Source of the DNA: Luteitalea sp.
Lineage (GTDB): Bacteria; Acidobacteriota; Vicinamibacteria; Vicinamibacterales; Vicinamibacteraceae
NCBI GenBank assembly: GCA_009377605.1
Contig: WHTT01000015.1
Coordinates: 34,562 to 88,862, forward strand
Direction: 5' to 3'
DNA length: 54,301 nucleotides
Below, piece by piece: positions 2,047-47,112 of this stretch. Each line of letters begins with the position of its first letter. The first letter of the stretch is position 1. The position numbers and the translations under genes were made by a program. The notes beneath the pieces were generated by a model. It had not been told where the DNA came from and searched no databases. It saw nothing but the letters and a program-made list of their open reading frames with translations.

Positions 2047-2080
2047 AGTTTGCCTCGACGAGTCTTGGAGGACCAGAAAC

Positions 2081-2191: not shown

Positions 2192-2220
2192 GTGAGCTGC
2201 AGTGGTTCCAGCGCAACCTC

Positions 2221-2586: not shown

Positions 2587-3010
2587 AGCGCGCGAGCACG
2601 GGTTGGAAGTCGAGATATTCGGTCAGTGCTCGCGCCTCAAAGGCCACACGCCGCCGCTCGTCGCGCGTGTACAGCAGCCGTCCGTCACGCACGACACGGT
2701 GTCGGAGCAGTGGCGGCGCCTCGTTCAGGATGGCAAGATCGACCTGCTGTTCCGTTGCGCGTTCGGCCTCCTCGACAAGCGCCGCGGCAAGCTCGAACCG
2801 GCGGGACACGTCAACGTCATCATCGAAGAGGATAGCCAAGTCGACGTCGCTCAAGGGGCCAGCGTCGCGACGTGCCACGGAGCCGAACACGTACCCGCAC
2901 ACGACGTGAAATGTCGGGCGCCCACACACGCGCGAAAGGGCCACGAGTATCGTGTCCACCGATGTGCGCTCGCTCTGGATCCCAGCGGGACGCTCAACAG
3001 GAAACCGCAT
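2537..3010 (-). CDS. MntA-type nucleotidyltransferase antitoxin
   Basis: 157 residues from the ATG at 3010; a longer upstream frame lacks family similarity. The minimal nucleotidyltransferase motif GSVARRDAGPLSDVDLAI is present (GS followed by DVD), then the expected VEEAERATEQQVDLAIL strand carrying the third acidic position. MntA proteins pair with HepT HEPN toxins and block them by AMPylation. Its 3' end overlaps the HepT-like gene. Because that partner lacks its catalytic motif, this gene may be a relic of addiction or an antitoxin acting in trans. Confidence 0.82.
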   Translation of the reverse strand: MRFPVERPAGIQSERTSVDTILVALSRVCGRPTFHVVCGYVFGSVARRDAGPLSDVDLAILFDDDVDVSRRFELAAALVEEAERATEQQVDLAILNEAPPLLRHRVVRDGRLLYTRDERRRVAFEARALTEYLDFQPVLARFDRILLSRAREGRFGT

Positions 3011-3200
3011 CGTGAGCAGTCTAACACGCTGAGTCCAGGGGCAACTGAGTCTACTCCAGCCCCGACCGGGTCGACGGATTCGACAGGGTCGACAACCTGA
3101 TCCGGCAGAAAACCCTTGCCGTCTTCCCACGCCAAACGCCGGGCCGTGGCTCCTTGTCACTGTTGCCGGACGCGTCCCTTCCATGGGACGGGTGCGATTC

Positions 3201-3217
3201 CTACGTACCTTCGTAGT
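3201..3217 (+). promoter_or_regulatory. CTACGTAC-N4-GTAGT site 1
   Basis: CTACGTACCTTCGTAGT, followed by G. It lies 134 bp upstream of the OmpA-family gene at 3351 and in the same orientation. It is one of nine copies in the window with identical fixed bases; it is a candidate operator for a LuxR/NarL-type response regulator. Confidence 0.7.
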
Positions 3218-3350
3218 GACGCCCGGTCCAGACATCGCGGGTCCTTGACCAAAGGCGACCATTCAGCTCGATCAGGTCGGACGCTGACATGCGGCCAGCG
3301 CAGTCTCCCAAAAATGCAATTGCAGGCCGCCAAAACAAGGAACGTGTGAC

Positions 3351-5433: not shown

Positions 5434-6690
5434 TCAAGGAAACAACAACAGTTGCCGCACGAAGACGTACGCTGCCCCCTGGGAGCTGTTTCCGCCAACG
5501 TCGGCATTCGGTGCGCCAGCGACCAGTGTGTTGCCGGCGATCGCGACAGATCTGCCGAAGTCGTCGCCCGGCGCCCGGCCCAATGACACCAGCTTCCTCT
5601 GCGTCCAGCCGGTCGCGGTTAGGCTGAACACGTATGCCGCGCCCTGGTAGTCATCGGCGTAAGGCGCGCCGACCACGACCCTGTCACCGGCAACGGCGAC
5701 CGATTCGCCAAACCGATTGTCGAAGGAGCCATCCGACGCAACGAAGTAGTCGAATATCCAGCCGCTCCCGTATCGCAAGAACACGAAGGCGTGGCCAACC
5801 CCGAGGTTGCTGGTGCCCGGGTCGCCGACGACCACGCGATCGCCGTCGATCGCGACAGACCAGCCAAATGCCCCCCCACTTACCTGAGGCGGTAGCAGCT
5901 GCGCCGTTTCCGTCCAGGTGCCCGACCACCAGCTCCGCCTGAACACATACGCCGCCTTACCAATCGCGCCAACGACGACTGTCGACGGAATTGTGTTGCG
6001 GGCAATGGCCACGGATATGCCAAACCAGTCGTATGCCGCCCCATTCGACGCGGTCAGCGTGGCGGTCTCGGTCCAGACGCCGCCGACTTCCGTGAACACG
6101 TAGGCCGCGCCCTTCGTGTCATCGGCACCAATCGCGCTAACGACCACCGTGTTACCAGCAATGGCCACGGAGCCTCCAAAGAAGTCGTCCTCCGTGCCGT
6201 TGCTGGCGGTTAACTTCGCCGTCTCGGTCCAGACGCCGCCGGCTTCCGTGAACACGTAGGCTGCGCCCCGCTCCGACTCTCCGGCGACATCATCCTCAGC
6301 AAGCGCACCAACGACGACCGTGTCGCCGTCAATAGCCACCGAAATTCCAAACCGTTCGATCGAAGCGTCTGACGTTGTAAGCTGCGCCGTCTCCGTCCAC
6401 GTGTCACCGACCCGGCGAAGGATATAGGCTGCTTGGGCGCGAGGCGCACCGACAACCAGGGTGTCGCCGTCGAGGGCGACGGACCGGCCGAACTCGTCGG
6501 AGGGTGTGCCATTTGACGCGGTCAACTGCGCCTGCTCGGCCCAGTAAAACAAGGGGAAGCCCTGGGCGGACGGCTGCGCGATCATCCCTCCAAGGAGGAT
6601 GCCGAGGACGGAGACGAAACGACCCTTCGAGAACCTCAGGGTCGCCCTGAGCCCTGTCGAAGGGCGAATGCGGGTTGAGCTTCTCAGCAT
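5434..6690 (-). CDS. Secreted FG-GAP / integrin-alpha-like repeat protein
   Basis: 418 residues from the ATG at 6690, which has a clear ribosome site (AAGGAGACATC). A basic N-terminus and hydrophobic segment (FVSVLGILLGGMIAQPSAQG) form a signal peptide. The rest is seven or so beta-propeller repeats of about 50 residues of the type FGxSVAIxGDTVVVGA...GAAYVFTExGG.WTETAxLTAS. FG-GAP propellers are usually cell-surface or secreted binding modules. There is no enzyme domain. Regulatory site 2 lies 103 bp upstream in matching orientation. Confidence 0.88.
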   Translation of the reverse strand: MLRSSTRIRPSTGLRATLRFSKGRFVSVLGILLGGMIAQPSAQGFPLFYWAEQAQLTASNGTPSDEFGRSVALDGDTLVVGAPRAQAAYILRRVGDTWTETAQLTTSDASIERFGISVAIDGDTVVVGALAEDDVAGESERGAAYVFTEAGGVWTETAKLTASNGTEDDFFGGSVAIAGNTVVVSAIGADDTKGAAYVFTEVGGVWTETATLTASNGAAYDWFGISVAIARNTIPSTVVVGAIGKAAYVFRRSWWSGTWTETAQLLPPQVSGGAFGWSVAIDGDRVVVGDPGTSNLGVGHAFVFLRYGSGWIFDYFVASDGSFDNRFGESVAVAGDRVVVGAPYADDYQGAAYVFSLTATGWTQRKLVSLGRAPGDDFGRSVAIAGNTLVAGAPNADVGGNSSQGAAYVFVRQLLLFP

Positions 6691-6792
6691 GATGTCTCCT
6701 TCAATCCTCGCGTGGTCCGCGCGCCCTTCGACTCGCTCAGGGCGGCCGCGCGACGCTGTGCAATACCAATAGCCCAGCGCGGCGCGGCAAGC

Positions 6793-6809
6793 ACTACGTA
6801 CGTACGTAG
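6793..6809 (-). promoter_or_regulatory. CTACGTAC-N4-GTAGT site 2
   Basis: On the minus strand the sequence is CTACGTACGTACGTAGT then G, with fully palindromic character. It lies 103 bp upstream of the FG-GAP gene start and points toward it. Confidence 0.7.
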
Positions 6810-6827
6810 CAATCTGCTCTTGGCCAG

Positions 6828-6899
6828 GCACGTCCGGACGATCGATGCACCATGCATTGCTGGACCGTACGATTTGGGGTGACGTTTCACCCTCGGTAA
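6828..6899 (+). pseudogene. 3' stump of an outer-membrane beta-barrel gene
   Basis: The frame from 6828 reads ARPDDRCTMHCWTVRFGVTF followed by three residues and a TAA. It matches the last 20 residues of the intact beta-barrel protein at 15517-16044 (RPDDRSTIQYWTVRFGVTFL). Only the final strand remains; upstream sequence shows no continuing match. It shows that a second copy of that gene once stood directly in front of regulatory site 3. Confidence 0.7.
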
Positions 6900-6928
6900 C
6901 CAACCGATGTACGGCCGTCGTCGCTTTG

Positions 6929-6945
6929 CTACGTACCTGCGTAGT
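6929..6945 (+). promoter_or_regulatory. CTACGTAC-N4-GTAGT site 3
   Basis: CTACGTACCTGCGTAGT, ending 81 bp before the ATG of the secreted protein at 7026. The surrounding 100 bp is duplicated at 10550-10664 with the site unchanged. Confidence 0.72.
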
Positions 6946-7025
6946 CCTCTCCAGGCGGAACGTCAGTAGTCTCTATTTCAGAACGTCGCAGCGGCATGCG
7001 TGACGAATGGAAAGAGGAGGAGACG

Positions 7026-7757
7026 ATGCAAAAGTCAGATAGCACCGACAGGGCACATGAGATTCGTTCGATACGACTCCACGATAGGAGTCTCACGCTG
7101 AAGGTCGCTCTCGTGGCCGCTGGCATCGTCATCGGGGCCACCGCGATACCGCGCGGACCCGCCGCGGCGGAGAACGACGCGCCCCAGGCGCCCAAGGCTG
7201 GAGGGAACACCCAGCCCTCGGCGTCGGGCCTCCTGGGGCTCGGGGACGTGTTCGTTACCAACGACAGCGCCCATCCCGTGCCCACGATGGCGACGGGCAC
7301 GACACCCATCTCGGGGTCCGTCACCGTCGCCAACCCAAACCCGATCCCCGTCTCCGGCTCGGTCACGATTGCCAACCACAATCCGGTCGTGATCGCCGAT
7401 CCCGAGCTCGCCCGGGAGCCGACGCGCATCCCTCTCGGCTTCTATGGCGACTACCCAACCATCTACGACGTTCCCGCCGGCAAACGGCTCGTCGTCGAGT
7501 TTATCAGCGCCTGGGACTCGGACGTCGCCACGCCGCTGTGGGATCTGGTTGTCGTCGACGCTGGTAGCGGTCATGGCCGCGTCCGTTACCAGTTCGTCGG
7601 TGAGCCAGTCCCCGGCTGCTCCCCGAGCTGCTATGTCCTGAACCAAGCGATCCACTTCTACGCCGACGAGGGCGATCGGCTTATCCGAGGTGCCGGTGGC
7701 GTGGGCACCGAGGACTTGCCGCTGAACATCACTGGTTACTTCATCGACCGTCCTTGA
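7026..7757 (+). CDS. Secreted protein, intact member of the duplicated paralogue family
   Basis: 243 residues. The ATG at 7026 follows AAAGAGGAGGAGACG and is preferred over an in-frame ATG at 6996. An internal hydrophobic segment (LKVALVAAGIVIGATAIPRG) acts as signal or anchor. Residues about 75-120 carry short repeats of the type TPISGSVTVANPNPIPV and SGSVTIANHNPV. The C-terminal 120 residues are globular, with two Cys in CSPSC, and end in LNITGYFIDRP. No known domain was recognised. The near-identical but frameshifted copy is at 10664-11396. Site 3 lies upstream, so expression is probably under the regulator of that motif. Confidence 0.82.
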   Translation: MQKSDSTDRAHEIRSIRLHDRSLTLKVALVAAGIVIGATAIPRGPAAAENDAPQAPKAGGNTQPSASGLLGLGDVFVTNDSAHPVPTMATGTTPISGSVTVANPNPIPVSGSVTIANHNPVVIADPELAREPTRIPLGFYGDYPTIYDVPAGKRLVVEFISAWDSDVATPLWDLVVVDAGSGHGRVRYQFVGEPVPGCSPSCYVLNQAIHFYADEGDRLIRGAGGVGTEDLPLNITGYFIDRP

Positions 7758-7852: not shown

Positions 7853-7869
7853 CTACGTACCCACGTAGT
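7853..7869 (+). promoter_or_regulatory. CTACGTAC-N4-GTAGT site 4
   Basis: CTACGTACCCACGTAGT then G, 71 bp upstream of the remnant ATG at 7941. The next intact gene downstream is the lipoprotein at 8308. Confidence 0.68.
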
Positions 7870-8105: not shown

Positions 8106-8243
8106 ATGGCGGCGCAACGGCTCGCGGCGGCGGTGCGGACGGTGACGGCGCCGGGCCGCGATCGCGACGCATGGACGGTCATCTTCGACTGCCGGACGGC
8201 CGTCGTGCGTGCCCTGCGGGCCGTGCTTGTCTTCCACGGGTAG
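8106..8243 (+). pseudogene. Truncated copy of the HEPN-like gene
   Basis: 45 codons (AVRTVTAPGRDRDAWTVIF then DCRTAVVRALRAVLVFHG and a stop). The segment is nearly identical to residues 14-57 of the protein encoded at 12480-12884. The remaining two thirds are deleted; a short GAGCTCATC-type match resumes at about 8280. This is part of the shuffled duplication. Confidence 0.72.
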
Positions 8244-8307
8244 CGGACCGCTCGACGACCAGATCGCCACTTGGCAGGGAGCTCATCGGTTTGAAGGAGG
8301 ATTGAAT

Positions 8308-8661
8308 ATGACCGGACGGAGCCTTTGCGTGGGTGCGGCGGTGATCCTCACGCTGACTGGGTCCGGCTGCGCGATCCGGGATCGCATGACCGGCGAGGCG
8401 GAGGCGAAGCAGATCCGTGCCGTGGGTGTCGCCGCCGAGGCGACTGTCGTCCAGATCTGGGACACGGGCGTGACCGTCAACGACGATCCGGTCGTCGGTT
8501 TCCTGCTGGATGTGAAACCTGATGGACAGCCGCCGTTCCAGGCGAAGACAAAGGCGCTCGTGTCGCGCCTGGCGGTGCCGCGTGTGCAGCCGGGCGCGCA
8601 CCTGCGCGTCATGTTCGATCCGCACGACACGACGCGCGTGGCGATCGACCCGATTCGCTGA
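8308..8661 (+). CDS. Small putative lipoprotein
   Basis: 117 residues; the ATG at 8308 follows AAGGAGG by eight bases. The N-terminus (LCVGAAVILTLTGSGCAIRD) is a signal sequence ending in Cys, but Gly occupies the -3 position where lipoboxes usually have Leu, so lipidation is likely rather than certain. The mature part (VGFLLDVKPDGQPPF, VSRLAVPRVQPGAHLRV, FDPHDTTRVAID) resembles small beta-rich domains of unknown function. A truncated copy of the first 28 codons lies at 12004-12117. Confidence 0.75.
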   Translation: MTGRSLCVGAAVILTLTGSGCAIRDRMTGEAEAKQIRAVGVAAEATVVQIWDTGVTVNDDPVVGFLLDVKPDGQPPFQAKTKALVSRLAVPRVQPGAHLRVMFDPHDTTRVAIDPIR

Positions 8662-10565: not shown

Positions 10566-10582
10566 CTACGTACCTGCGTAGT
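10566..10582 (+). promoter_or_regulatory. CTACGTAC-N4-GTAGT site 5
   Basis: CTACGTACCTGCGTAGT, identical to site 3 and 82 bp before the ATG of the frameshifted paralogue at 10664. It has been duplicated along with its gene. Confidence 0.7.
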
Positions 10583-12118: not shown

Positions 12119-12469
12119 GTGTCGGGCAGTTACACGGCGCAGTGGCAGGAGTACCGACGGCGGCGGCGGTGGGCGTTCGGGCTCGCGCTTGGGATAGGGC
12201 CCTTGGCCGCGCTCTGGCTCGTCATCGATGGGCACGCGTGGCTAGAGCCGTTTGCCGTCGCGCTCAGCCTGGCCTGGATGGGCGCCATGGTGATCGCGGG
12301 CTGGCGGTTTGGCCTCTGGCCGTGCCCCCGCTGCGGGCGCCCGTTCTGTCTCACGTCCGTCAGGGACTGGTTCTGGTCCATGGGCGGCGACCGACTGCGC
12401 GCGCTCCTCACACCGCGCTGTGTGCATTGCGGCCTCCCGAAGTGGGCGACGAGAGACACGGGCTCCTGA
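12119..12469 (+). CDS. Small membrane protein with zinc-ribbon-like motif
   Basis: 116 residues from a GTG at 12119, two bases after the preceding stop. Two hydrophobic stretches (FGLALGIGPLAALWLVID and PFAVALSLAWMGAMVIAGW) are likely transmembrane helices. The C-terminal part has CPRCGRPF and CVHCGLPK, two CxxC pairs about 38 residues apart that could bind zinc. No family recognised. The gene has been lost from the other copy of this duplicated region. Confidence 0.68.
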   Translation: MSGSYTAQWQEYRRRRRWAFGLALGIGPLAALWLVIDGHAWLEPFAVALSLAWMGAMVIAGWRFGLWPCPRCGRPFCLTSVRDWFWSMGGDRLRALLTPRCVHCGLPKWATRDTGS

Positions 12470-15368: not shown

Positions 15369-15385
15369 CTACGTACGTAGGTAGT
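15369..15385 (+). promoter_or_regulatory. CTACGTAC-N4-GTAGT site 6
   Basis: CTACGTACGTAGGTAGT then G. It lies between divergent genes: 132 bp before the beta-barrel gene at 15517 (same orientation) and 112 bp upstream of the LVIVD-repeat gene on the minus strand. Confidence 0.7.
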
Positions 15386-15516: not shown

Positions 15517-16044
15517 ATGACTTTTCAATCAGACGGAGTCCGCCCCTGGCTGGGACGGATTGGCTTGCTCATGCTTCTGTGCCCGCTGCTGGCACCACGC
15601 GCTGCGGCACAAACACCGGTAGAAGGCTATGTCTATGCTGGACCCGGTGGTTACAGTGGATTCTCCAACGACAGCTGGCTCGTGTCCCTCGGTGGGGGCG
15701 CGGAGATCTTTCCAAGCGCTGCGCCTTTGAGCGTCGGAGTGGAGCTCGGCTACCTCGGCCAGCCGACCGCGCTGAGTGGCGGACTGGCTCTCTTCTCTGC
15801 CAATGGCGGCTACCACTTCGCCCGCAGAGGAGGCCGGCAAACCGTGTCGCCGTTCGTGACGGCCGGTTACACGAGGCTCTTTCGACCGGACGTTGGCTTC
15901 AATGCCTGGAACCTTGGGGCGGGGATCAACTACCGGGTCAGCGAGCGCGTCGGCCTCCGGATAGAGCTTCGTGACCACATCCGACCCGACGATCGGTCCA
16001 CCATTCAGTACTGGACCGTACGATTCGGCGTGACGTTCCTCTGA
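15517..16044 (+). CDS. Outer-membrane beta-barrel protein
   Basis: 175 residues with a signal peptide (IGLLMLLCPLLAPRAAAQ). The mature protein has alternating amphipathic strands (EGYVYAGPGGYSGF, LSVGVELGYLG, VSPFVTAGYTRLF, LGAGINYRVSERVGLRIEL) and ends in a strand with terminal aromatic character (YWTVRFGVTFL), as expected for an eight-stranded OmpA/OmpW-like barrel. Function unknown. The stump of a second copy is at 6828-6899. Site 6 lies upstream. Confidence 0.82.
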   Translation: MTFQSDGVRPWLGRIGLLMLLCPLLAPRAAAQTPVEGYVYAGPGGYSGFSNDSWLVSLGGGAEIFPSAAPLSVGVELGYLGQPTALSGGLALFSANGGYHFARRGGRQTVSPFVTAGYTRLFRPDVGFNAWNLGAGINYRVSERVGLRIELRDHIRPDDRSTIQYWTVRFGVTFL

Positions 16045-16083: not shown

Positions 16084-16100
16084 CTACGTACGTGTGTAGT
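16084..16100 (+). promoter_or_regulatory. CTACGTAC-N4-GTAGT site 7
   Basis: CTACGTACGTGTGTAGT then G, 142 bp upstream of the membrane-protein gene at 16243, in the same direction. Confidence 0.7.
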
Positions 16101-16242: not shown

Positions 16243-16863
16243 GTGATGATCGCCGAGCCTGACGTTACGTTGACGGACTACGCGCTCGCCGTGGAGTGCG
16301 CGGTTCTGGCCCGGCTCGTGGCAGGCCACGGTGGCGCGGCTTCCGGCTGGTTCGCACTGTTCTTCGCCGCGCTCGGCATCGGCGCGGCCGCGGGCGGCAC
16401 GGTGCACGGCTTTCCAGGTGTGCTCGAGACCACGCTGTGGCTGGCTGCGCTGCTGGCGTTGGGCGTAGGCGCTTGGGCGGCCACTATGGCCGGTGTGCGG
16501 ATCGGCCTGCCGGCGTCCGCTGCCCGGTGGGTTGCGCGCGGCGCGAGTCTCGGGCTGGTCCTCTATGCCGTCACCGTCACGTGGATCAGTCGCGACTTCG
16601 CCTTGGCCATCGTCGGCTACTTGCCGGCCGTCGTCTTCTTGTTCGCGGTCTTCGCTTGGCGCTATGCACGTGACCGGGCGCCAGGCTCCGGAGCGGCGAT
16701 GGCAGGCCTCGCGTTGACGCTCGCGGCTGCTGCCGTGCAACACTACCGGATCGCGCCACCGCGGCTACCGCTCGACCACAACGCGCTCTATCACCTGGTC
16801 CAGGCCGTCGCGCTCTTTCTCATCTACCGCGGGGCGCGGCAGGCTGAACCGCTTGGGAGATGA
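16243..16863 (+). CDS. Polytopic membrane protein (DUF6962-like)
   Basis: 206 residues from a GTG at 16243; an ATG directly follows at 16246. Six or seven hydrophobic segments are visible, among them GWFALFFAALGIGAAAGG, TTLWLAALLALGVGAWAA, LGLVLYAVTVTW, IVGYLPAVVFLFAVFAW and MAGLALTLAAAAV. Conserved-looking polar sites are the paired His in GGTVHGF and the C-terminal LDHNALYHLVQAVALF. The pattern recalls DUF6962 membrane proteins, but the match is from memory. It ends four bases before the FAD oxidoreductase gene, so the two form an operon under site 7. Confidence 0.7.
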   Translation: MMIAEPDVTLTDYALAVECAVLARLVAGHGGAASGWFALFFAALGIGAAAGGTVHGFPGVLETTLWLAALLALGVGAWAATMAGVRIGLPASAARWVARGASLGLVLYAVTVTWISRDFALAIVGYLPAVVFLFAVFAWRYARDRAPGSGAAMAGLALTLAAAAVQHYRIAPPRLPLDHNALYHLVQAVALFLIYRGARQAEPLGR

Positions 16864-21500: not shown

Positions 21501-21947
21501 TTCGCGGGCAGCCCGAACAACTACTACCCGGAGTGGGTGGGCGCGCGCCGCCCGGACCTCGTCAGCCGGCCGGAGCTGGTGGACAACTGGAGAGAGTTTG
21601 GTGACGATCGCTTCAACACGGCCAATATCAATCCCATCATCGACATCAACCACTTCGCCTACCCCGACGCGTTTACGCCCGGAAATACAGGGCGGAATAT
21701 CCTGACCGGTACGCCGCTGATCTGGAGCGCCGCGTCGGTACAGAAGAACCTGACACTGTCGGGGCAGACACGGCTCCAAGTGCGTCTCGACTTCAACAAC
21801 CCGCTCAAGACCTGGAACTTCAATCCTCCGAACACCACGGTGAACCTGCAGACCCCCGAGACGTTCGGAAAGGTGACGGGGAATCCGGTGACAGCAAATT
21901 TCGGCGGCTTGCCGCTGATGAACCTGTCCGTCAGGGTGATCTTCTAA
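18543..21947 (+). CDS. Oar-like TonB-dependent receptor
   Basis: 1134 residues with a strong ribosome site (GGGGGAGGAGAG) before the ATG at 18543. A signal peptide (ALMASVWVVVFCSVAAAQ) is followed by a CarboxypepD_reg domain at about 25-105 (LVGQVSDSSGAVLPGVSVTA, FRIQGLQPGEYRVTF). The plug follows (GQRNTAIASVIDGMIANNPV, GTLPAEFGHTAGGVVSVTKK). A long beta-barrel ends in PLMNLSVRVIF with terminal Phe. Such receptors move large substrates, often glycans or metal complexes, across the outer membrane using TonB energy. Full length and apparently intact. Its stop overlaps the stop of a decayed TonB gene on the other strand. Confidence 0.92.
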   Translation: MRRSALMASVWVVVFCSVAAAQIGTSTLVGQVSDSSGAVLPGVSVTAVQPDTGFRFDAVTNEAGLFRIQGLQPGEYRVTFDLTGFGRLVRESIQLSAGDTVRVNGALEVGQVTDDIEVVGKPPLLATETSDTGTVMEGEMLYELPLYQRFANSALTLVPGTSSQGYAYAGSLGNFHVAGQRNTAIASVIDGMIANNPVGGTTTVRATQNSVAETKIYTGTLPAEFGHTAGGVVSVTKKTGTNDLHGMASVLWRSGHMQHRNFFDRERTANIRFMQPDAYLGGPVVLPGVYDGHGKTFFFVSFERLLDKQVVQLPGEVPSPAMKQGDFSLGGIGNPIFDPATTRQLPDGTWTRDPFPGNVIPQERIDAVARRILDADPWLPPNQPGSLSPEGPVSNLLYDRRGRVDWNDFSARLDHQFRPAFTVYGSYQLNESRGNPGRPTNMKVEDDLQDFAGGSGRQTDTLVHIFSGGNTWVLSPTLVSSTRVGYQRRFEEQFAFSWGKSYGEILGIPNISGEMLPSFGTGNEFSPSSLYGITPTGPSRDVSETYSFQTDLTQVKGSHTLKMGYQFLRLSVDSTNTNIPSGRFSFGEMTAGLQPDGNPMPNTGNTFAGFLLGYVRQAEFDRELTSWRPRSNIHGLFIQDDWNLTSSLTLNLGLRYTNESPYNASQLSNFDPTAIDEVTGQRGAIVHPDTPLHARDNNNFQPRVGLAWHPLERWAFRAGFGVNTVDVKFPLSRGNFDEFVAVDNQQRAPGDPRPLFRISEGPQPVDFDVRPNGTAPFVGENFGAREVRWWDPELRNPYVMNWNLSVQFQAADNYLIEAMYQGSAGVGLVEQWEVNTFPVDFGADDPDLRAAAFRAPQDFRPYPHFGSIQMRSNFGHSTYHGGTLKVQKRYSHGLTFLSHYTFSKAINTQDGDNDGNGVAPIQNRSLEKARASYDRTHVFTSSILYELPIGQGRAFLNRGGPVNAILGGWDISWIQTFQSGNPLTFAFAGSPNNYYPEWVGARRPDLVSRPELVDNWREFGDDRFNTANINPIIDINHFAYPDAFTPGNTGRNILTGTPLIWSAASVQKNLTLSGQTRLQVRLDFNNPLKTWNFNPPNTTVNLQTPETFGKVTGNPVTANFGGLPLMNLSVRVIF

Positions 21948-22259
21948 AAGATGTAGCGGGCCATCACCTGGACGGAGCGTGCGTCATTCGCCTGGCCCGT
22001 GATCTGACCAAAGTTCTCGCTGGCAAAGTTGGCGCTCGGGAAGCCCCACTGGCGCCGATTGAACACGTTGTAGAGCTCGAGCCTGAGCAACAGGCGATCG
22101 TTGGTCGGCATCTGAAAGCTCTTGGACCGCGACACCCGGAAGGCCCGAGCCTGTCGTGTCCGTGACGGTTCCCCGAACCGTTCCCGTGACCGTCTGGGCT
22201 GAGACGCCGGCAGGAGCCGCCAGGAACACCGCTGCTGACGATAACGAAACAGGCGGCAA
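21944..22259 (-). pseudogene. TonB-dependent receptor with a very large internal deletion
   Basis: The N-terminal frame (to about 22135) reads SSAAVFLAAPAGVSAQTVTG then TVRGTVTDTTGSGLPGVAV: a signal peptide and the start of a CarboxypepD_reg domain. A second frame, 21944-22135, reads LLLRLELYNVFNRRQWGFPS, ANFASENFGQITGQANDARS and VQVMARYIF, the last two strands of an Oar-like barrel. About 900-1000 codons that normally lie between are missing. It is a scar of a second receptor gene convergent with the intact one. Confidence 0.82.
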
Positions 22260-22741
22260 GGCGGGTGCCGCGCGGGCGAGGGGCCTAAAGGCCCCTCCCT
22301 CCTGGTTCGGGCTTCGCGGCCGCAGAACCTGTGGTGAGGTCCGTCAGATGCCGATGCATGATCGCGTCGCCCCTTGCTTCAGATGAAGCGAATGCGTTGC
22401 GCGCACCCGCGCCGCTCAGGTGACCTCGGACCCTTCGCGAAACAGCGCGGGATCATCCCGACGTTGTGACCGTGGCTCGAGCCCCATGGTGGGCCATGGC
22501 CCGGTGGTTGTCACTACCTAGGTACGTAGGATCTGTAGGCGGCACAGGACCGTACGCCTGCACCTTCGATGGGTAAATCGCTCTGTAGGTAAATGGCTGT
22601 AAATGGCTCTTGACTTGCCCGAGACGACGATGGCATCGTCGTCGTCGTGGGAGGTGGGGAGTCATGAAGCCAGCAAACGTGCAACACGCAGTGTCAGTTG
22701 GTGAATCGTCCCGTCACCACCTCCAGAGAGGAGGCTCGCGT
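22260..22741. other. Intergenic stretch with regulatory site 8
   Basis: No gene is supported here. It holds the likely upstream region of the decayed TonB gene, the 17-bp motif at 22513-22529, and a short direct repeat (GTAAATGGCT twice near 22590-22610). The Uma2-like gene's ribosome site (AGAGAGGAGG) lies near its end. Confidence 0.5.
22513..22529 (-). promoter_or_regulatory. CTACGTAC-N4-GTAGT site 8
   Basis: On the minus strand CTACGTACCTAGGTAGT then G. It points toward the decayed TonB receptor gene about 250 bp away; on the plus side the Uma2-like gene starts 213 bp away. Confidence 0.65.
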
Positions 22742-23515: not shown

Positions 23516-26368
23516 TTACTGCGCGGCTGGCGCCGGTACGAGCGTCGCGACCGTGTAGCGATCGAGCGAAAAGTACCTCCGAAAGGCCTCCTGAACGGTC
23601 TGCGGCGTAATGGCGTCGATCCGCGCGCCGCGGCTCAGGATCTCACTCGGGTCGCGCCGGAACATCTGCACCGCCTGAAGACGGCTCACCCAGTAATCGT
23701 TCTGCTGGAGCGCGGTTTCGTGCCTTCGTCGGGTCGACTCCTTGGCACGGCCTATCAGATCGGCAGATGGCCCTTCCTGCTGCAGACGCTTGATCTCCTG
23801 GAGGACATGCTCGGTCATCGATCCGATGTTCTCGGGAGCCGCGCCGAAGCTCACTTGGATGTGCCCCCCGCCGCGCTGCGGCAAGCGTTGCAGGAGGCCG
23901 ACCGACACGGTGTAAGTCTGGCCCAATTCCTCCCTGAGCATGTCCCGCAGGGCGATGTTCAGAACCGTTGTCGCCGCCGCGGTGTTCTCTTGCTCAACTG
24001 GGTCAGGGGGCGGGTCGGCGAAGAAACTGATCACGACATCACCTTTCGGCTCGCGCCCCATCTCGACCGTCGCACGGTCCACCGAGGATGGAAACCGTAT
24101 CCCGACATCACGGAATTGCGAGGCAGGCTTCCCTTTCGATGGCAGAGAGCCGACGTACTGCGCCAGTAGCGGCACCGCCTCGTCAATCTTGAACGCGCCG
24201 ACCATGAACAATGTGAAGTCGGCGGCATTCGCGAACAGCTCGCGGTAAGAGGCCGTCATCTTCTGACGGTCGAGCGCGGCGACCCGCTCGGCCGTGAGCG
24301 GCTCTGACGTCCAGTGGTTGGACGTATTGAGCTGCGTCAGCCGCTCGCCGAAGACCTGTCCTGGTGACCGGCCGCGATTCGCCGCGGCGGCCCCCATTTG
24401 CCGCTTCATCACGGCAAAGGCCTCGGGATCGTCACCGGGAGCTGTGAACGCTTGGTGGAGGAGCTGGAGGCTGGTCTCGAGGTCCGCCGGTGTTGCTCTC
24501 CCTGAAATGCCGTGCGTGGACATCGTGGCGAACGGTGACGCGCCAGCAAGCTTCCCCGCGAGAAGCTTCTGGAGATCGACGGCCTTCAGACCGCCGACTC
24601 CAGAGGCGCGAACGTAGGCCGGCGACAGCGAAGCCTCGATAAAGTCGGGTCGCGACGCGAGCGACACTCCGCCCAGCGCGCGCAGCGTGAAGAGGATCTG
24701 ATCGTTCTTGAACGTCGTCGGCTTGAGCCACGCTTCGACGCCGTTGGCGAACCGCACGACGGTGACGCCGACGTCAGAGATCTCCCGTCTGGAGGAGACG
24801 CGAGAGGGTGTGGGCTTTGCCTCCATCAACTCGCGTCCCAGCGGAGCGTCGCTCCAGGCCGTCACCGCTCGCGCGTCGGCGGCTGTCAGCGCCGCCTGGA
24901 GCTCACGCTCGGTCGGCACCCGCAGGCCCCTCTTTTGCGGCGAGACGGCGAGGACCATGCGGCCGTCGTCCGCAAGCAGCGACCGAGCCATGGTGGAGAT
25001 CTCGGCGGTCGAAATGCTCGGCACGAGCCGCTGTACTAGCCGATACTCGTACTCGATGCCTGGCGACGGCTCGTCCTCCAGAAAGAGGTTCAGGTATTCC
25101 TGGGCAAAAGCGCCGCTCTCGGACTTGTCGCGCTCGGCGTACGCCCGCTTGTAGAACGCCGCCATCGATTTCTTGGCGCGATCGACCTCAGACTCAGTAA
25201 ATCCGAGCTCGCGCGCGCGCTTCGCTTCGACGGCCAACAGTTCGACGCCGTCTTCGATCCGTCCGTCTGCCACACGCGCACTGAGCCCGAATGCGGCGAC
25301 CGTCGAGCTGATTGCGCCATCGTTGGCGCTGGCGCCGAGAAATTTCGCGTCGGGCTCCCGCGCGAGCACGTCCAGGCGCTCGTTGAGCATCCGCTCGACC
25401 ATCCGTTCGATGAGTGCGCGGCGGTAATCCGCGACCCGATAGTCGGCCTGTTTGGCGCGCTTGCGAAGGACCTGCACCGACGACCGCGTCATCTCTGGGT
25501 CGGTCACGACGCTCGCGAGCAAGCGGTGCCTGAGAGGGACGGTCGCGGTCGGGTCAGGCGCGACGGCCGCACGTGCCTTCAGCGATGCAAATTCCGACGT
25601 CACGGCCGCCTGAAGCAGAACGGGATCGACGTCACCGACGATGATGAGGGCCATTCGTTCTGGGCGATACCAGGTGTCGTAGTAGGCGCGCAAGTGCTCC
25701 ACTGGCGCGTTCTTCAGGATGTCGGGCTTGCCTATGGGCAGGCGTTCGGCATAGCGTGACTTGAAGAAGATGATCGGCAGCTGCTCGTCTCGAATGCGCG
25801 AGCTCACTCCAAGACGGCCCCGCCACTCTTCGACGACGACACCTCTCTCCTTGTCCACTTCCTTTGGATCGAGCGTCAGGCCGCCAGCGACGTCCGCCAG
25901 CGCCGTCAAGCCCTTGGCGATGACGTCTGCCTTGTCGCTTGGCAAAGCGAGGCTATAAACCGTGTGGTCGAAGCTCGTGTAGGCGTTGACGTGGGGGCCT
26001 AGCCTGGCGCCGATCGACTCGAAGTAAGACACCATCTCGCCCGGCTTGAAATGTGTGCTTCCATTGAACGCCATGTGCTCGATGAAATGCGCCAGGCCTT
26101 GCTGGTCGTCGGCTTCTTGGAGCGAGCCGGATTTCACCGCCAGTCGCAAAGAGACGCGCTGCGCCGGGCGATCATTGTGGCGGATGAAGTACTTCAGGCC
26201 GTTTGGCAGCGTCCCAGTCCGGACAGCGGGATCCAGCGGGAGCGCAGCTCGTGGATCCAAGGGCTGTGCGGGAACCTCTGGCGCCTGCGCGAACAGCCAG
26301 GACGCACCGCACGACAGCACGGCGAGTGTGAACAAGGCGATGGCACGGCGTGCAACGCGTGTACGCAT
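23516..26368 (-). CDS. M16B family zinc metallopeptidase (pitrilysin type)
   Basis: 950 residues from the ATG at 26368, where a signal peptide begins (ARRAIALFTLAVLSCGASWL); the longer frame runs back through the response-regulator gene. The inverted zinc motif H94-F-I-E97-H98 is followed 76 residues after H98 by E174 in VDKERGVVVEEWRG, the standard spacing of M16 enzymes. A second M16 half with an R/Y substrate-binding region (FADPPPDPVEQEN, LREELGQTYTVSVGLLQR) completes the clam-shell. It would degrade peptides in the periplasm. It begins 11 bp after the response regulator, so the two are probably co-transcribed. Its stop codon lies at the edge of the MITE. Confidence 0.92.
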   Translation of the reverse strand: MRTRVARRAIALFTLAVLSCGASWLFAQAPEVPAQPLDPRAALPLDPAVRTGTLPNGLKYFIRHNDRPAQRVSLRLAVKSGSLQEADDQQGLAHFIEHMAFNGSTHFKPGEMVSYFESIGARLGPHVNAYTSFDHTVYSLALPSDKADVIAKGLTALADVAGGLTLDPKEVDKERGVVVEEWRGRLGVSSRIRDEQLPIIFFKSRYAERLPIGKPDILKNAPVEHLRAYYDTWYRPERMALIIVGDVDPVLLQAAVTSEFASLKARAAVAPDPTATVPLRHRLLASVVTDPEMTRSSVQVLRKRAKQADYRVADYRRALIERMVERMLNERLDVLAREPDAKFLGASANDGAISSTVAAFGLSARVADGRIEDGVELLAVEAKRARELGFTESEVDRAKKSMAAFYKRAYAERDKSESGAFAQEYLNLFLEDEPSPGIEYEYRLVQRLVPSISTAEISTMARSLLADDGRMVLAVSPQKRGLRVPTERELQAALTAADARAVTAWSDAPLGRELMEAKPTPSRVSSRREISDVGVTVVRFANGVEAWLKPTTFKNDQILFTLRALGGVSLASRPDFIEASLSPAYVRASGVGGLKAVDLQKLLAGKLAGASPFATMSTHGISGRATPADLETSLQLLHQAFTAPGDDPEAFAVMKRQMGAAAANRGRSPGQVFGERLTQLNTSNHWTSEPLTAERVAALDRQKMTASYRELFANAADFTLFMVGAFKIDEAVPLLAQYVGSLPSKGKPASQFRDVGIRFPSSVDRATVEMGREPKGDVVISFFADPPPDPVEQENTAAATTVLNIALRDMLREELGQTYTVSVGLLQRLPQRGGGHIQVSFGAAPENIGSMTEHVLQEIKRLQQEGPSADLIGRAKESTRRRHETALQQNDYWVSRLQAVQMFRRDPSEILSRGARIDAITPQTVQEAFRRYFSLDRYTVATLVPAPAAQ

Positions 26369-26379
26369 GTGATCATCTT

Positions 26380-27063
26380 TCACCGCAGCAGGCGATGTTG
26401 CACCGCCTTGGCGACGGCCTCGGTCTTGCTGTGGACCTGGAGCTTCTCGTAGATACGGCGGAGGTGAAACGAGATCGCGTGCACGGTGACGCCGAGCTCC
26501 GTGGCGGCCGTCTTGTAGTTGTAGCCGTCGGCAAAGAGGCGGAGCACGCGGATCTCGTGCGGTGTCAGGTTGTAGTCGGCCTGTGCTGGCGGGCGGATAT
26601 CGCGAAAGATCGTGATGACACGGTGTGCCACCTCCGGTGACATTGGGGCTCCACCAGCGACGGCTTCTTTGAGGGAGTCGAGCATCCCCGCCGGCAGCGT
26701 CTTCTTGAGCAGGTACCCGCACGCGCCAGCACACAGCGCTTCGAAGATGCGTGCGTCGTCCTCGTACACCGTGAGCATCAGGCACAAGAGCTTCGGGGCG
26801 GCGGCCGTCAGGCGACGAACGCCGTCGATGCCTGACATGCCCGGGAGGCCAATGTCGAGCAGGGCAATATCGGGCGGATCGCCGAGCACCGGGCCAAGGG
26901 CCGCTTCCATGGAGCGATAGGATCCCGAACAGTGAAACCCGGGCGTGCTGTCGAGCAGGGTCGCGAGGTATTCGCGAATCTCTCGTTGATCTTCGACGAT
27001 GGCCACCCGGATGGGTGGCGCGGTGGTGCGAAGCGCTTCCGTGGGTGGCAACTGGTCGGGCAT
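26380..27063 (-). CDS. NarL/LuxR-type response regulator
   Basis: 227 residues from the ATG at 27063; a GTG at 27111 would add 16 residues. The receiver domain (about 18-135) has the acidic pair ED at 24-25, phospho-acceptor D70 in IALLDIGLPGMSGID, T98 in LTVYEDD and Lys in GYLLKK. A LuxR-type helix-turn-helix spans about 165-225 (LTPHEIRVLRLFADGYNYKT, HAISFHLRRIYEKLQVHSKT). Only a stump of a histidine kinase remains upstream. Regulatory site 9 sits 57 bp before the start, so autoregulation is possible. The M16 peptidase gene follows in the same operon. The regulated signal is unknown. Confidence 0.9.
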   Translation of the reverse strand: MPDQLPPTEALRTTAPPIRVAIVEDQREIREYLATLLDSTPGFHCSGSYRSMEAALGPVLGDPPDIALLDIGLPGMSGIDGVRRLTAAAPKLLCLMLTVYEDDARIFEALCAGACGYLLKKTLPAGMLDSLKEAVAGGAPMSPEVAHRVITIFRDIRPPAQADYNLTPHEIRVLRLFADGYNYKTAATELGVTVHAISFHLRRIYEKLQVHSKTEAVAKAVQHRLLR

Positions 27064-27112
27064 GATGGGTCTCACGCGGTCGTTACTCCACAGCTTGTCC
27101 GCGCGCGGCACA

Positions 27113-27244
27113 TCACGTCACTACCAAAGTACGTAGCTTTCGGCGTAGGGGGATGCATAACGTGACGCGTGTGCCCTCGTCCAGGGCAGAAACCACGTTG
27201 AGTGTGCCACCGAGCTGGCTGGAAACGAAATTCTGCAGACGAGG
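27113..27244 (-). pseudogene. C-terminal stump of a histidine kinase upstream of the response regulator
   Basis: The frame between a TAG and a TGA reads LQNFVSSQLGGTLNVVSALD and EGTRVTLCIPLRRKLRTLVV. This is the end of a HATPase_c domain (LGGxLxVxSxxxxGTRVTLxIP). Everything upstream, including the phospho-acceptor His, is replaced by rdgB, whose stop is only 7 bp away. The regulator has apparently lost its cognate kinase. Site 9 lies within the last codons. Confidence 0.72.
27120..27136 (-). promoter_or_regulatory. CTACGTAC-N4-GTAGT site 9
   Basis: On the minus strand CTACGTACTTTGGTAGT then G, ending 57 bp before the response-regulator ATG and inside the kinase stump. Confidence 0.7.
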
Positions 27245-27858: not shown

Positions 27859-27915
27859 GAAACGGGGACAGCCCCCGTTTTCCGTCATGCGAAAAACGGG
27901 GGCTGTCCCGTTTTC
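27859..27915. repeat. Nested GGGGACAGCCCC-type palindrome between rph and rdgB
   Basis: Two units, AACGGGGACAGCCCCCGTT and AACGGGGGCTGTCCCGTT, each able to form a short hairpin, are arranged head to head so the pair forms a 22-bp arm hairpin. The same unit appears once at 45715-45740. With flanking T-runs it could also end transcripts in both directions. Confidence 0.7.
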
Positions 27916-38914: not shown

Positions 38915-39714
38915 GGTTCCATGACAACCGGGTTGCTGAGCTCGCCAATCCCGTCGATGGCGACGGTGACCTGATCGCCCGGCTGAAGCCAGCGCGGCGG
39001 CGTCCGCGCCATGCCGACGCCTTGCGGCGTCCCGGTCAGGACCACGGTGCCCGGCAGTAGCGTCGAGCTCTCGCTCAGGAACGAGACGAGCGTCGCGACA
39101 TCGAAGATCATGTCGCTGGTGTTCGAGTCTTGCATGGTCTCGCCGTTCAAGGTCGTGCGTATGCCGAGCGCTTGGGGATCCGGAATCTCATCGGTCGTGA
39201 CGAGCGTCGGACCAAGCGGTGCGAAGGTGTCGAACGTCTTTCCCCGACACCACTGCCCGCCGCCGCGCTTGATCTGCCAGTCGCGGGCGCTGACGTCGTT
39301 CGCGCAGGTGTAGCCGAGCACGTAGTCGAGGGCCTTGTCTTTTGGTACATTCTTGCAACGCCGACCGATGACCACCGCCAGCTCGCACTCATAGTCCACC
39401 TCGGCGCTCGCGGCGACACGAGGCAGCTCGATGGGATCACCCGGGTGCTGAAGAGCGTTGGGCCCCTTCGCAAAGAGAATGGGCTGTGCCGGTACCTTGC
39501 CACCGGTCTCCTGGGCGTGTTGCGTGTAGTTCAGGCCAATGCACCAGATCATCGGCGGTTCGACTGGCGCAAGCAGCTTCTCGATCGTGACGACGCGGTC
39601 GGTCGGACGCGGGTGGTCGAACAGGTTGCCCTCGAGCAGCCGGGCGGAGTCGTCTGGCTGCAGGGCGGCGTGGACGATGCGATTCCCTTCGGTCAGGCAG
39701 CGAATAATCCTCAT
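38911..39714 (-). CDS. Fumarylacetoacetate hydrolase family protein
   Basis: 267 residues from the ATG at 39714. Motifs are MIWCIGLNYTQHAQETG, EVDYECELAVVIGRRCKNVP (the acidic pair binding Mg), YTCANDVSARDWQ (third metal ligand Asp) and VVLTGTPQGVGMARTPPRWL. Family members hydrolyse or decarboxylate C-C bonds of beta-diketo acids, or hydrate sugar-acid intermediates such as 2-keto-3-deoxy-L-fuconate products. Sugar-acid use would fit the glycosidase-rich setting but is inference. First gene of a pair with the Nramp-like transporter. Confidence 0.88.
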   Translation of the reverse strand: MRIIRCLTEGNRIVHAALQPDDSARLLEGNLFDHPRPTDRVVTIEKLLAPVEPPMIWCIGLNYTQHAQETGGKVPAQPILFAKGPNALQHPGDPIELPRVAASAEVDYECELAVVIGRRCKNVPKDKALDYVLGYTCANDVSARDWQIKRGGGQWCRGKTFDTFAPLGPTLVTTDEIPDPQALGIRTTLNGETMQDSNTSDMIFDVATLVSFLSESSTLLPGTVVLTGTPQGVGMARTPPRWLQPGDQVTVAIDGIGELSNPVVMEP

Positions 39715-39794
39715 GGGGCAAGATAATGCCACAAGCTGTTCGAATTGCGGTCACTGGCAGGGCAAGCCCATTGGCTTGCGGGATCATCTTGCCC
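39715..39794. repeat. Imperfect 80-bp palindromic element between divergent genes
   Basis: Outer arms (39715-39735 and 39775-39794) match with about four mismatches, sharing GGGCAAGAT. An internal perfect hairpin GCAAGCC-CATT-GGCTTGC lies at 39762-39779. It occupies the shared promoter space of the FAH gene and the DUF2461 gene. It could be a mobile palindrome or an operator. Confidence 0.6.
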
Positions 39795-39810
39795 AGGACG
39801 GAAAGGGGCT

Positions 39811-40563
39811 ATGCCCAGCATCTTCACCCCAGCGACGCTTCGGTTCCTTCGCGCGTTGAAGCGAAACAACGATCGAGATTGGTTCAAGGCCCATCGCGAC
39901 GAGTACGAGCGGTCCGTGCGCGCGCCGATGGTGGCGCTCATCGAGCGGCTGGCCGAGGAGCTGCAGCGCTTTGCACCGGATCTGGTCGCGTCTCCCCGCG
40001 AGTCGCTTTACCGGATCTATCGCGACACGCGCTTCAGCGCGGACAAATCGCCGCTCAAGACGTACGTTTCTGCCGTCTTCCCGTCACGCGGCCTGTCGAA
40101 AAAGAATGGCGCTGGCTTGTATGTCGAGGTGACGCCGAGCCACGTCTGGGCCGGCGGAGGGATCTATCGACCTCAGTCGCGCGAGCTCCTGCGCATTCGC
40201 GAGCACATTGCCGCTCACCTCGACCGCTTTCGCGCCATTGTCGACTCACCTCGCCTGGCGCGCCGGACGGGCGGGGTGAGCGGCGAGCGCCTGCAGCGTG
40301 TCCCGCGCGGTTTCAGCGTGGATCACCCGGCTGCGGAATACCTGAAGTTGAAGCAGTTTCTGGCTGGGCGTGAGTATCCCGCCGCGTTTGCCACGAGCCC
40401 ACGCTTCCTGCCGGCGCTCCTGGGGGTCTTCGAGGCTGTGGCGCCCCTCGTGACGTTCCTCAACGAACCGTTGCTCACGCCGCCCCGCGCGCCGCTCGGG
40501 TTGGATCTGCTGACGCCGATGCCCCCGAGCACGACGCGGCGGAAGGTGCGAGGTTCGAGGTAA
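39811..40563 (+). CDS. DUF2461 (TIGR02453) family protein
   Basis: 250 residues from the ATG at 39811. It opens FTPATLRFLRALKRNNDRDW FKAHR-type, then LYRIYRDTRFSADKSPLKTY and GLYVEVTPSHVWAGGGIYRP, the core of this conserved family of unknown function. The C-terminal part runs to ALLGVFEAVAPLVTFLNEPL. No signal peptide. Monocistronic. Confidence 0.9.
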   Translation: MPSIFTPATLRFLRALKRNNDRDWFKAHRDEYERSVRAPMVALIERLAEELQRFAPDLVASPRESLYRIYRDTRFSADKSPLKTYVSAVFPSRGLSKKNGAGLYVEVTPSHVWAGGGIYRPQSRELLRIREHIAAHLDRFRAIVDSPRLARRTGGVSGERLQRVPRGFSVDHPAAEYLKLKQFLAGREYPAAFATSPRFLPALLGVFEAVAPLVTFLNEPLLTPPRAPLGLDLLTPMPPSTTRRKVRGSR

Positions 40564-44614: not shown

Positions 44615-45700
44615 ATGCATCAACGGATCTTTGTCATCCTGTTGTTGGCCTTGCCCAGCGTGTTGCTGCAGGCCAGCGACGAGCCGCCCACATCTTGGAT
44701 CGATCCAGATACGGGCCACCGCGTGGTACGGCTCACGAGCGAGCCCGGGAGTGCGAGCCTCTACTTCAACCAGAATGGCTACACCGCCGATGGCAGCCGT
44801 CTCGTCTATACGACGCCCGACGGCATCTCGGTGCTCGATCTGACGACCCGTGAGGCGCGGCAGGTGGTCAAAGGACGAGCACGAATGGTCGACGCTGGCC
44901 GGAAGACGCCGCGAATTTACTACACGCGTGACGAGGCGGTGTACTCGACAAACGTGGATACCGGCGAAACGCGCAAGATTGCCACGCTGCCCCCACGGGG
45001 ATCGATCGACACCGTCAACGCCGACGAGACGCTGTTGGCCGGCACGTATATCGAGGGCGACGGGAAGGACTACAACAACCGGCGCCCCACGCCGAGCCGC
45101 CGCGGCCGGCAGGCCGCCGCTCAGCAGGGGCATTCGCTCGACCAGCCGCGCAACAAAGGACAGATGATGGAGGAGCGCTGGGCTGCGCGCCTCCCAATGG
45201 GTCTCTTCACGGTCGATATCGAGACCGGCGAGGTCAAGACCATCCACCGGAGCAATGATTGGCTCAATCATCTGCTGTTCTCTCCGACGGATCCCACGCT
45301 ACTGATGTTTTGCCACGAGGGCCCCTGGCACAAGGTGGATCGCATCTGGACGATCCGCACGGACGATACCGACGTCACCAAGATCCATACGCGCACGATG
45401 GCCATGGAGATCTTCGGACACGAGTTCTGGGGCGCCGATGGCAAGACCATCTGGTACGACCTCCAGACACCGCGCGGTGAGGACTTCTGGCTGGCGTCAT
45501 ACAACGTCGACACCAAGCTCGAGGAACTGAGCCCGCTCGTCAAACACGAGTTCCTCGACGGACAGGTGTGGGCGATGGCCGGCGGAAGTCCCGATCATGC
45601 CGCGATTGCCGGTAACGTGCTCCGCGCAGCACTTTTGCAGTCGTTGTCCTGCTCGCTGCCCCTCGACGACGTGTACCGCAACCCGCCGGCGTCCAGGTAA
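44615..45700 (+). CDS. Oligogalacturonate lyase-like (PL22) secreted protein with replaced C-terminus
   Basis: 361 residues from the ATG at 44615, which has GGGGAG upstream. A signal peptide (IFVILLLALPSVLLQAS) leads into the seven-bladed propeller of PL22 lyases: SWIDPDTGHRVVRLTSEPGS, LYFNQNGYTADGSRLVYTTP, LNHLLFSPTDPTLLMFCHEG and IFGHEFWGADGKTIWYDLQT. His and metal-site segments are present, but after YNVDTKLEELSPLV (about 45540) the expected last blade is missing. The tail GQVWAMAGGSPDHAAIAGNV fits poorly with PL22. It may be inactive. Substrate by family would be unsaturated galacturonate disaccharides from pectin. Confidence 0.75.
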   Translation: MHQRIFVILLLALPSVLLQASDEPPTSWIDPDTGHRVVRLTSEPGSASLYFNQNGYTADGSRLVYTTPDGISVLDLTTREARQVVKGRARMVDAGRKTPRIYYTRDEAVYSTNVDTGETRKIATLPPRGSIDTVNADETLLAGTYIEGDGKDYNNRRPTPSRRGRQAAAQQGHSLDQPRNKGQMMEERWAARLPMGLFTVDIETGEVKTIHRSNDWLNHLLFSPTDPTLLMFCHEGPWHKVDRIWTIRTDDTDVTKIHTRTMAMEIFGHEFWGADGKTIWYDLQTPRGEDFWLASYNVDTKLEELSPLVKHEFLDGQVWAMAGGSPDHAAIAGNVLRAALLQSLSCSLPLDDVYRNPPASR

Positions 45701-45714
45701 ACAGGGAAAAACGT

Positions 45715-45740
45715 AAAAAACGGGGACAGCCCCCGTTTTC
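45715..45740 (+). terminator. Hairpin terminator, GGGGACAGCCCC family
   Basis: AAAAAACGGGG-ACAGC-CCCCGTTTTC, 15 bp after the stop of the lyase-like gene. It is a single copy of the unit found doubled at 27859-27915. Confidence 0.75.
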
Positions 45741-45867
45741 CGACCCTGCTGGACGGGACGAGCTCGTCGTGACATAATGCCGTGAGATCGCCCGGCTCCG
45801 ATCTCGTGTTGATTCCCGCCTTTCTGCTGAATCCACACCGCTTTCCTTGGGCCGCAGTTGATTTCGC

Positions 45868-47112
45868 TTGACCTTACAGACCAATCCTCTTCCTCGCGGC
45901 CGACGGCGCCGCACCGTTCGTTCTTCGTCATCCGCTCCTCGCTCGCGGCGGGCACGTCCCGAGGCGCCGGCGCTCACATTGGTGCCCGAAGCGGCCCCGC
46001 CCGAGCCGCCGCTGGCCTTCGACTCCCTTGGCCTCGACCCGGCGGTGCAGCTCGGCATTGCCGATCGGGGGTTCTCGCACACGACGCCGGTTCAGACCGC
46101 CGTCCTGCCACTGATTCGTGAAGGGCGCGATCTCGTGGCCTGTGCCGAGACCGGGACCGGGAAGACGGCAGCGTTCGTCCTGCCTATCCTGGACCGCCTG
46201 CTACAGCAGTCGCTCTCTGGTCACGCGGGCGCGACGAAAGTACTGGTTCTCACACCCACGCGTGAGCTGGCTGTCCAAGTGGACGATGACGTGCAAGGCT
46301 TCGGCTACCATGCCGGCATCAGCAGCATGGCCGTGTACGGAGGCGTTCCCATGGATCCTCAGGTGCGTGCGCTCGCCGCCGGCGTGCCGGTGGTCGTGGC
46401 AACACCCGGCCGGTTGATCGACCACATGCGCTCGGGCGGCACGTCGTTTGACGGTCTCGAGGTGCTCGTGCTCGACGAGGCCGACCGGATGCTCGACATG
46501 GGCTTCTGGCCCGATGTCCGGCGCATCGTCGGTGCCCTGCCGCGGGAACGTCAGACGCTCCTCTTCTCAGCGACCATGCCGGACGAGGTGATGCAGTTTG
46601 CCAACGCGATCATGCGTGAGCCGGCGTTCGTGCAGGTGGGTCAGCGCAATGCCGCGGCCCGCACGATCACACACGCGGTCGAGCACGTGCCGAGGGGCCA
46701 GAAGACCGACTGGCTGGTTCGCTTCCTGCGGGACGAGACCGGTCCAATCCTCGTGTTCGTGCGCACCAGGCGCGGCGCAGAGCAATTGGCACGCGCCCTG
46801 GCCGGCCGGCGCATCCGCACGGCTGCCTTGCATGCCGATCGCACACAGCGAGAGCGGATGGCCGCCGTGGAGGGCTTTCGCTCGGGACAGTATCGAGTGC
46901 TCGTTGCCACCGATATCGCGGCGCGCGGGTTGGACATCGATGGCATTACGCACGTGATCAACTACGACGTGCCGCATTCTTCAAACGCGTACGTGCACCG
47001 AGTAGGCCGCACCGGCCGCGCCCTCAGCACCGGCACCGCGCTGACGCTCGTGTCGCCCGGTGACGAGCGCGCGCTCCAAGCGGTCGCCGATCACATCCCC
47101 CTCGCCGGCTGA
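45868..47112 (+). CDS. DEAD-box RNA helicase (RhlE type)
   Basis: 414 residues from a TTG at 45868; no ATG fits and the following basic tail (RGRRRRTVRSSSSAPRSRRA) is typical of these proteins. Q motif PVQTAVLPLIREGRDLV, Walker A AETGTGKT (93-100), PTRELAVQ, DEAD at 203-206, SAT, and in the second domain VATDIAARGLDIDG and HRVGRTGRA are all present. It unwinds RNA, probably in ribosome assembly or decay. The usual long C-terminal extension is missing. Its last 132 bp overlap the convergent metallophosphoesterase gene. Confidence 0.93.
   Translation: MTLQTNPLPRGRRRRTVRSSSSAPRSRRARPEAPALTLVPEAAPPEPPLAFDSLGLDPAVQLGIADRGFSHTTPVQTAVLPLIREGRDLVACAETGTGKTAAFVLPILDRLLQQSLSGHAGATKVLVLTPTRELAVQVDDDVQGFGYHAGISSMAVYGGVPMDPQVRALAAGVPVVVATPGRLIDHMRSGGTSFDGLEVLVLDEADRMLDMGFWPDVRRIVGALPRERQTLLFSATMPDEVMQFANAIMREPAFVQVGQRNAAARTITHAVEHVPRGQKTDWLVRFLRDETGPILVFVRTRRGAEQLARALAGRRIRTAALHADRTQRERMAAVEGFRSGQYRVLVATDIAARGLDIDGITHVINYDVPHSSNAYVHRVGRTGRALSTGTALTLVSPGDERALQAVADHIPLAG

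Follow-up and report, generated by a model that had tools for sequence, protein, structure and literature searches.

Which regulator reads a 16-bp dyad that recurs along a Luteitalea contig, and what would drive that regulator when only a fragment of a kinase gene lies beside it? The question is raised by P0001, a NarL/FixJ (LuxR-type) response regulator encoded in the stretch of 54,301 nucleotides analysed here (hereafter the window; G000:C15:34562-88862, from a source genome of 6.8 Mb in 382 contigs). Positions given without a contig label are those of the window.

P0001 (227 aa; 26380..27063, minus strand, start ATG at 27063, stop codon ending at 26380) matched the Pfam families Response_reg (1.2e-17) and GerE (5.8e-12), giving the N-terminal receiver and C-terminal GerE helix-turn-helix expected of its family. 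The phospho-acceptor D70, which a sequence-only reading of this DNA had described as intact, lies within LLDIGLPGMSG, and T98 and YLLKKT are likewise present, so that the conserved Asp, Thr/Ser and Lys are all in place. The recognition helix of the GerE domain is TVHAISFHLRRIYEKL. NarL was the best-scoring NCBIfam model (E 9e-29), with 100.2 bits where its cut-off is 250, and as all models shown scored below their cut-offs we rejected an identification of P0001 as NarL or another named regulator. A viral origin was also rejected, since no relative of P0001 was found in viral contigs. Downstream, a gene for an M16 peptidase (Peptidase_M16 and M16_C; 23516..26368, minus) starts ~11 bp past the P0001 stop; the two genes therefore form a probable operon, of which the peptidase is probably the second gene.

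Upstream, P0001 has no adjacent intact kinase of the kind found in Reg_prop/Y_Y_Y kinase-linked systems. What is present instead is a sensor-kinase remnant of 43 codons plus a stop (PRLQNFVSSQLGGTLNVVSALDEGTRVTLCIPLRRKLRTLVVT; 27113..27244, minus, frame 27244-27113), corresponding to the 44 kinase codons previously noted there and aligning, as a C-terminal ATPase end, with the C-termini of family kinases. It aligns best (E 1.5e-4 over 22 residues) with a full-length kinase encoded on contig C46 of this genome, whose domains are Reg_prop, Y_Y_Y, HisKA_3 and HATPase_c, and this match to the C-terminal end of such kinases points to descent of P0001 from a Reg_prop/Y_Y_Y kinase-linked pair. Comparison with relatives, the check that had been recommended for this locus, gave the same picture: a search of 84,980 species genomes returned 80 loci with P0001 relatives, and most of the closer homologues lie directly behind an intact sensor kinase of ~1050 aa whose C-terminus ends in a typical GTxVxLxxPL stretch. 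The kinase-less state of P0001 is therefore derived.

The last codons of the remnant are overlapped by a motif site (site 9, CTACGTACTTTGGTAG then TGAC; 27121..27136, minus), 57 bp before the P0001 start codon, just where it had first been reported. The motif upstream of P0001 is a 16-bp dyad, CTACGTAC-N4-GTAG; the form typical of the genus is GATT-CTACGTACCTNCGTAG-TGAC and that of the regulator family is CTAC-N8-GTAG. Six other sites in the window are on the plus strand: site 1 (3201..3216) stands before an exported OmpA-domain protein (3351-4433, plus), site 3 (6929..6944) before an exported protein (6996-7757, plus), site 4 (7853..7868) before an ORF with a hydrophobic N-terminal part (8209-8661, plus), site 5 (10566..10581) within a second copy of the site-3 module, at 92% identity (C15:45109-46008), site 6 (15369..15384) before an outer-membrane beta-barrel protein (15517-16044, plus), and site 7 (16084..16099) before a DUF6962 membrane protein (16243-16863, plus). 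On the minus strand, site 2 (6794..6809) is a perfect palindrome whose TG flank is directed towards an exported FG-GAP protein (ORF 5434-6903, minus), and site 8 (22514..22529) faces only the C-terminal remnant of an OMP_b-brl_4 outer-membrane protein (21944-22135, minus), the sole ORF found downstream of it. Site 8 is a probable relict.

Within the window, CTACGTA has 11 strand-matches against 1.1 expected, and the 16-mer CTACGTACTTTGGTAG, allowing up to three mismatches, has 9 against 0.05 expected; together these matches mark nine distinct places. The earlier count of nine sites thus stands for the window, far above expectation, while the total in the genome is about 19: the pattern CTACGTACNNNNGTAG occurs genome-wide at 19 places (the reversed control at 2), and 15 of the 19 fall in the 39 kb of C15:23032-61697, at the right edge of which the kinase remnant is found. 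Such clustering would have a probability of ~1e-30 under random placement, a figure that shared descent of duplicated modules explains in part. Chance and base composition were rejected as sources of the motif by shuffles and by the reversed-pattern control. Column statistics over 25 sites from this genome and its congener G006 showed conservation of the core, of GATT upstream and of TGAC downstream. Signals at 40-45 bp, measured from where the site begins, are weak, and a -10 element is only weakly visible. The TGAC resembles a portion of a -35 element, in which case the site would abut the -35 as that of a class II activator does.

The distance from site to gene start is mostly 50-180 bp, and most of the downstream genes encode a hydrophobic N-terminal stretch. 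Under a simple, home-made procedure for gene finding and hydrophobicity, such an N-terminus was seen in 10 of the 13 site-linked genes on C15 and in 18 of 48 others (Fisher p 0.013); two of the three site-linked genes that have none are regulator loci. Collagen repeats (three genes, one on C11), OmpA, outer-membrane barrels, FG-GAP and a gp19-like protein make up the site-linked families. A duplicated exported protein in the same region (C15:26171-26943 and 39146-39927; 89% DNA identity) has no exact site upstream of either copy.

Usable upstream DNA was available for 77 of the loci with P0001 relatives. An exact CTAC-N8-GTAG lies within 150 bp upstream of the regulator at 12 of these (dinucleotide shuffles give an expectation of 0.06), and at least seven of its eight fixed bases are present at 28 (1.19 expected). 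The signal is strongest in the SFH recognition-helix class, which includes P0001 (exact site at 9 of 28 loci; 0.03 expected), and the exact site is missing in many homologues. Site form appears to track helix class, as judged by eye and without a tree: SFH regulators mostly have CTAC..GTAG, KFH regulators mostly CTACCC..GGGTGG (the form CTACCCAAACGGGTGG), and the FHTVSFHLKN group CTGC..GCAG. At several loci (L123, L135 and L138) the regulator is closely followed by a second site, which precedes the gene of a neighbouring exported protein; in G011, a genome of the same order, CTACGTATCTACGTAG precedes the exported-protein gene next to a 57% identical regulator (L237); and the TGAC flank recurs outside the genus at L124, L126 and L135. 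From the conserved 16-bp dyad upstream of this gene family we predict that P0001 binds the dyad as a dimer, and, on the same comparison of sequences, it is highly probable that the family of P0001 reads the motif.

Within the order, the extended motif is confined to this genus. Across 162 genomes, the TGAC-flanked form was counted 13 times in the source genome, 6 times in G006 and 2 times in all others. Counts above the control were seen in this genus alone, and an order-wide occurrence of the motif was rejected. A large regulon of TGA-flanked motifs in other members of the phylum was also rejected, with 0-4 per genome and numbers not clearly above the control.

P0001 has a paralogue, 84% identical, 36 kb away (C15:24663-25343), which carries CTACGTACCTTCGTAG at the corresponding upstream place and has a further motif site just downstream. 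No kinase adjoins either copy. Upstream of the two, DNA similarity sets in exactly with the first base of the site. The proteins themselves are almost the same in the DNA-binding domain and more diverged in the receiver. The motif sites may be read by either copy or by both, and deletion of one regulator alone may show little because its paralogue carries the same upstream site. The sequence-only reading had taken P0001 for the obvious candidate reader of all nine sites; attribution to its family gains from the own-promoter site across Acidobacteriota, but P0001 is not the sole candidate, as the paralogue and a regulator on contig C1, discussed below, also come into question.

The 39-kb stretch contains internal duplications that include the site (for example C15:41472-42369 with 45109-46008, 92%). 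In G006, the gene to the left of the cluster (C15:20996-22864) and the right-hand rdgB-rph block are separated by two small genes only. The stretch is thus absent from the syntenic place in that genome, and was therefore either expanded in the lineage of the source genome or lost in G006. A small gene inside the expanded stretch (12119-12469) is also found between the flanks in G006 (G006:C10:54459-54842, L232), and the stretch therefore probably grew by more than one insertion. Between rdgB and rph, the window carries an inverted repeat (AAACGGGGGCTGTCCC type) at 27861-27915 that resembles a REP element.

A distant kinase, raised earlier as a possible driver of P0001, is a plausible partner. 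Searching the genome with a family kinase yielded three full-length members: one at C46:3207-6551, which lies between two motif sites and is the closest match to the remnant; one at C23:3397-6777; and one at C11:87008-90160, ~1.4 kb before a motif site. No response regulator adjoins any of the three in the stretches read. They are the natural candidates, that on C46 first. Elsewhere, on C123, a truncated response regulator (G000:C123:812-1252) abuts a truncated family kinase (1135-3621) on opposite strands with slight overlap (L234), an arrangement that is either an inversion or an assembly join.

We propose that the ancestral module likely comprised a sensor kinase (Reg_prop/Y_Y_Y/HisKA_3/HATPase), a site, the response regulator, a second site and an exported-protein gene, and that the phosphorylated regulator would have switched on itself and its neighbour; this layout is present in the genomes, and we infer binding, the activating sign and the pairing of kinase with regulator. 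In this lineage the module would have broken up, leaving a duplicated regulator with no adjoining kinases, family kinases standing alone elsewhere, and a site that now precedes about twenty genes, mostly for exported proteins, with 15 sites in the 39-kb stretch. P0001 would then most likely be an activator that depends on phosphorylation by a distant kinase, controlling itself and the M16 peptidase, and the other site-linked genes jointly with its paralogue.

It is rather unlikely, although worth serious consideration, that after loss of the kinase the regulator came to read its sites unphosphorylated and constitutively, at a level set by autoregulation. Neither copy has a kinase beside it, and response regulators can bind and activate in the unphosphorylated state, as does AgrR, though with a 6-4-6 box (PMC7380067); but D70, T98 and the conserved lysine region of P0001 are intact, and the genome holds family kinases that are themselves partnerless. 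Action in the absence of phosphate had been suggested for P0001 from the start, and it keeps a precedent in AgrR, whereas the intact receiver speaks against this being the default mode.

The main rival to P0001 as reader is the regulator at G000:C1:143572, whose ortholog in the congener is G006:C24:69338; we find it doubtful that the motif is read mainly by this regulator, with P0001 as a copy that is minor or in decay. The C1 regulator is intact in both motif-carrying genomes (88.6% identity between the two), whereas no intact close ortholog of P0001 was found in G006, where the closest full-length relatives share 51% identity and a relict of 48 codons (C41:3107-3250) is 71% identical to the P0001 DNA-binding domain. 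In G006, moreover, the gene that follows the C24 regulator resembles the site-bearing exported genes. On the other hand, its recognition helix differs (ETIRFHI, compared to HAISFHL in P0001), and the exact CTAC-N8-GTAG is absent from its upstream region, where the best candidates are divergent; both P0001 copies have the exact site upstream, and they have kept nearly identical DNA-binding domains while their receivers diverged. A regulator that co-occurs better with the motif had been named in advance as what would overturn the assignment to P0001, and the C1 regulator literally shows such better co-occurrence, in a sample of two, with a single congeneric genome compared that is ~90% complete and in which an intact P0001 copy may be unassembled. 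Small exported proteins of the type MSLFM...PCRLVDTRG recur in G006 on C39, C27 and C24 (L116, L120 and L122), two of them following motif sites and one following the rival regulator.

It is very improbable that the motif represents an element of recombination or a repeat, copied with gene cassettes and not bound by a regulator: several duplicated stretches do start at or within ~20 bp of a site, and the stretch that G006 lacks has sites at either end, but conservation of the core and the GATT/TGAC flanks far exceeds that of the remaining copied sequence, the sites face gene starts, the same palindrome precedes response regulator genes in distant Acidobacteriota, and no integrase or transposase was seen among the scanned genes of the 39-kb stretch (a subset of its ORFs).

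With the family of P0001 as the predicted reader, we tentatively suggest, as an interpretation that could well prove too broad, that a two-component system has here been split into a network, with duplicated kinase-less regulators, separate sister kinases and a signature spread by duplication of gene-plus-promoter modules to about twenty genes for exported proteins, the majority within a single lineage-specific stretch, and that the helix and site variants form a readable recognition code for the LuxR-type regulators of Acidobacteriota. If so, a whole family of sensor-regulator pairs would gain a predicted DNA site from sequence alone, the helix classes and site variants could be tested in vitro, and one genus would show a two-gene switch growing into a dispersed surface-protein regulon.

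As far as the literature searched shows, regulators of Acidobacteriota and their binding sites are little described, and searches on this phylum and on this sensor family returned no account of a comparable Acidobacteria regulon. Systems of this general kind are known; for this member, its site and its split layout, the literature searched yielded no description. By sequence, the best solved-structure match to P0001 is VraR of Staphylococcus aureus (E 4.5e-23), which has the same domain order and an envelope-related regulon, but the overall similarity is low, the kinase is of a different type and the phylum is different. AgrR of Cupriavidus metallidurans combines a 16-bp imperfect inverted repeat with positive autoregulation and is active unphosphorylated (PMC7380067); the box, though, is a 6-4-6 repeat of ATTACA and the function of AgrR is in silver resistance, so that the analogy extends to phosphate-free action only. 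NarL and NarP of E. coli resemble P0001 in pairing a receiver and GerE helix-turn-helix with 16-bp dyad sites, those of NarL being 7-2-7 (TACCCCTAAAGGGGTA, 16 bp; PMC4549865). Compared to the TAC-N10-GTA of NarL, the TAC triplets here are spaced as TAC-N8-GTA, one base nearer the dyad centre, and, unlike in NarL/NarP, the linked kinases carry Reg_prop/Y_Y_Y sensors and the targets are exported proteins.
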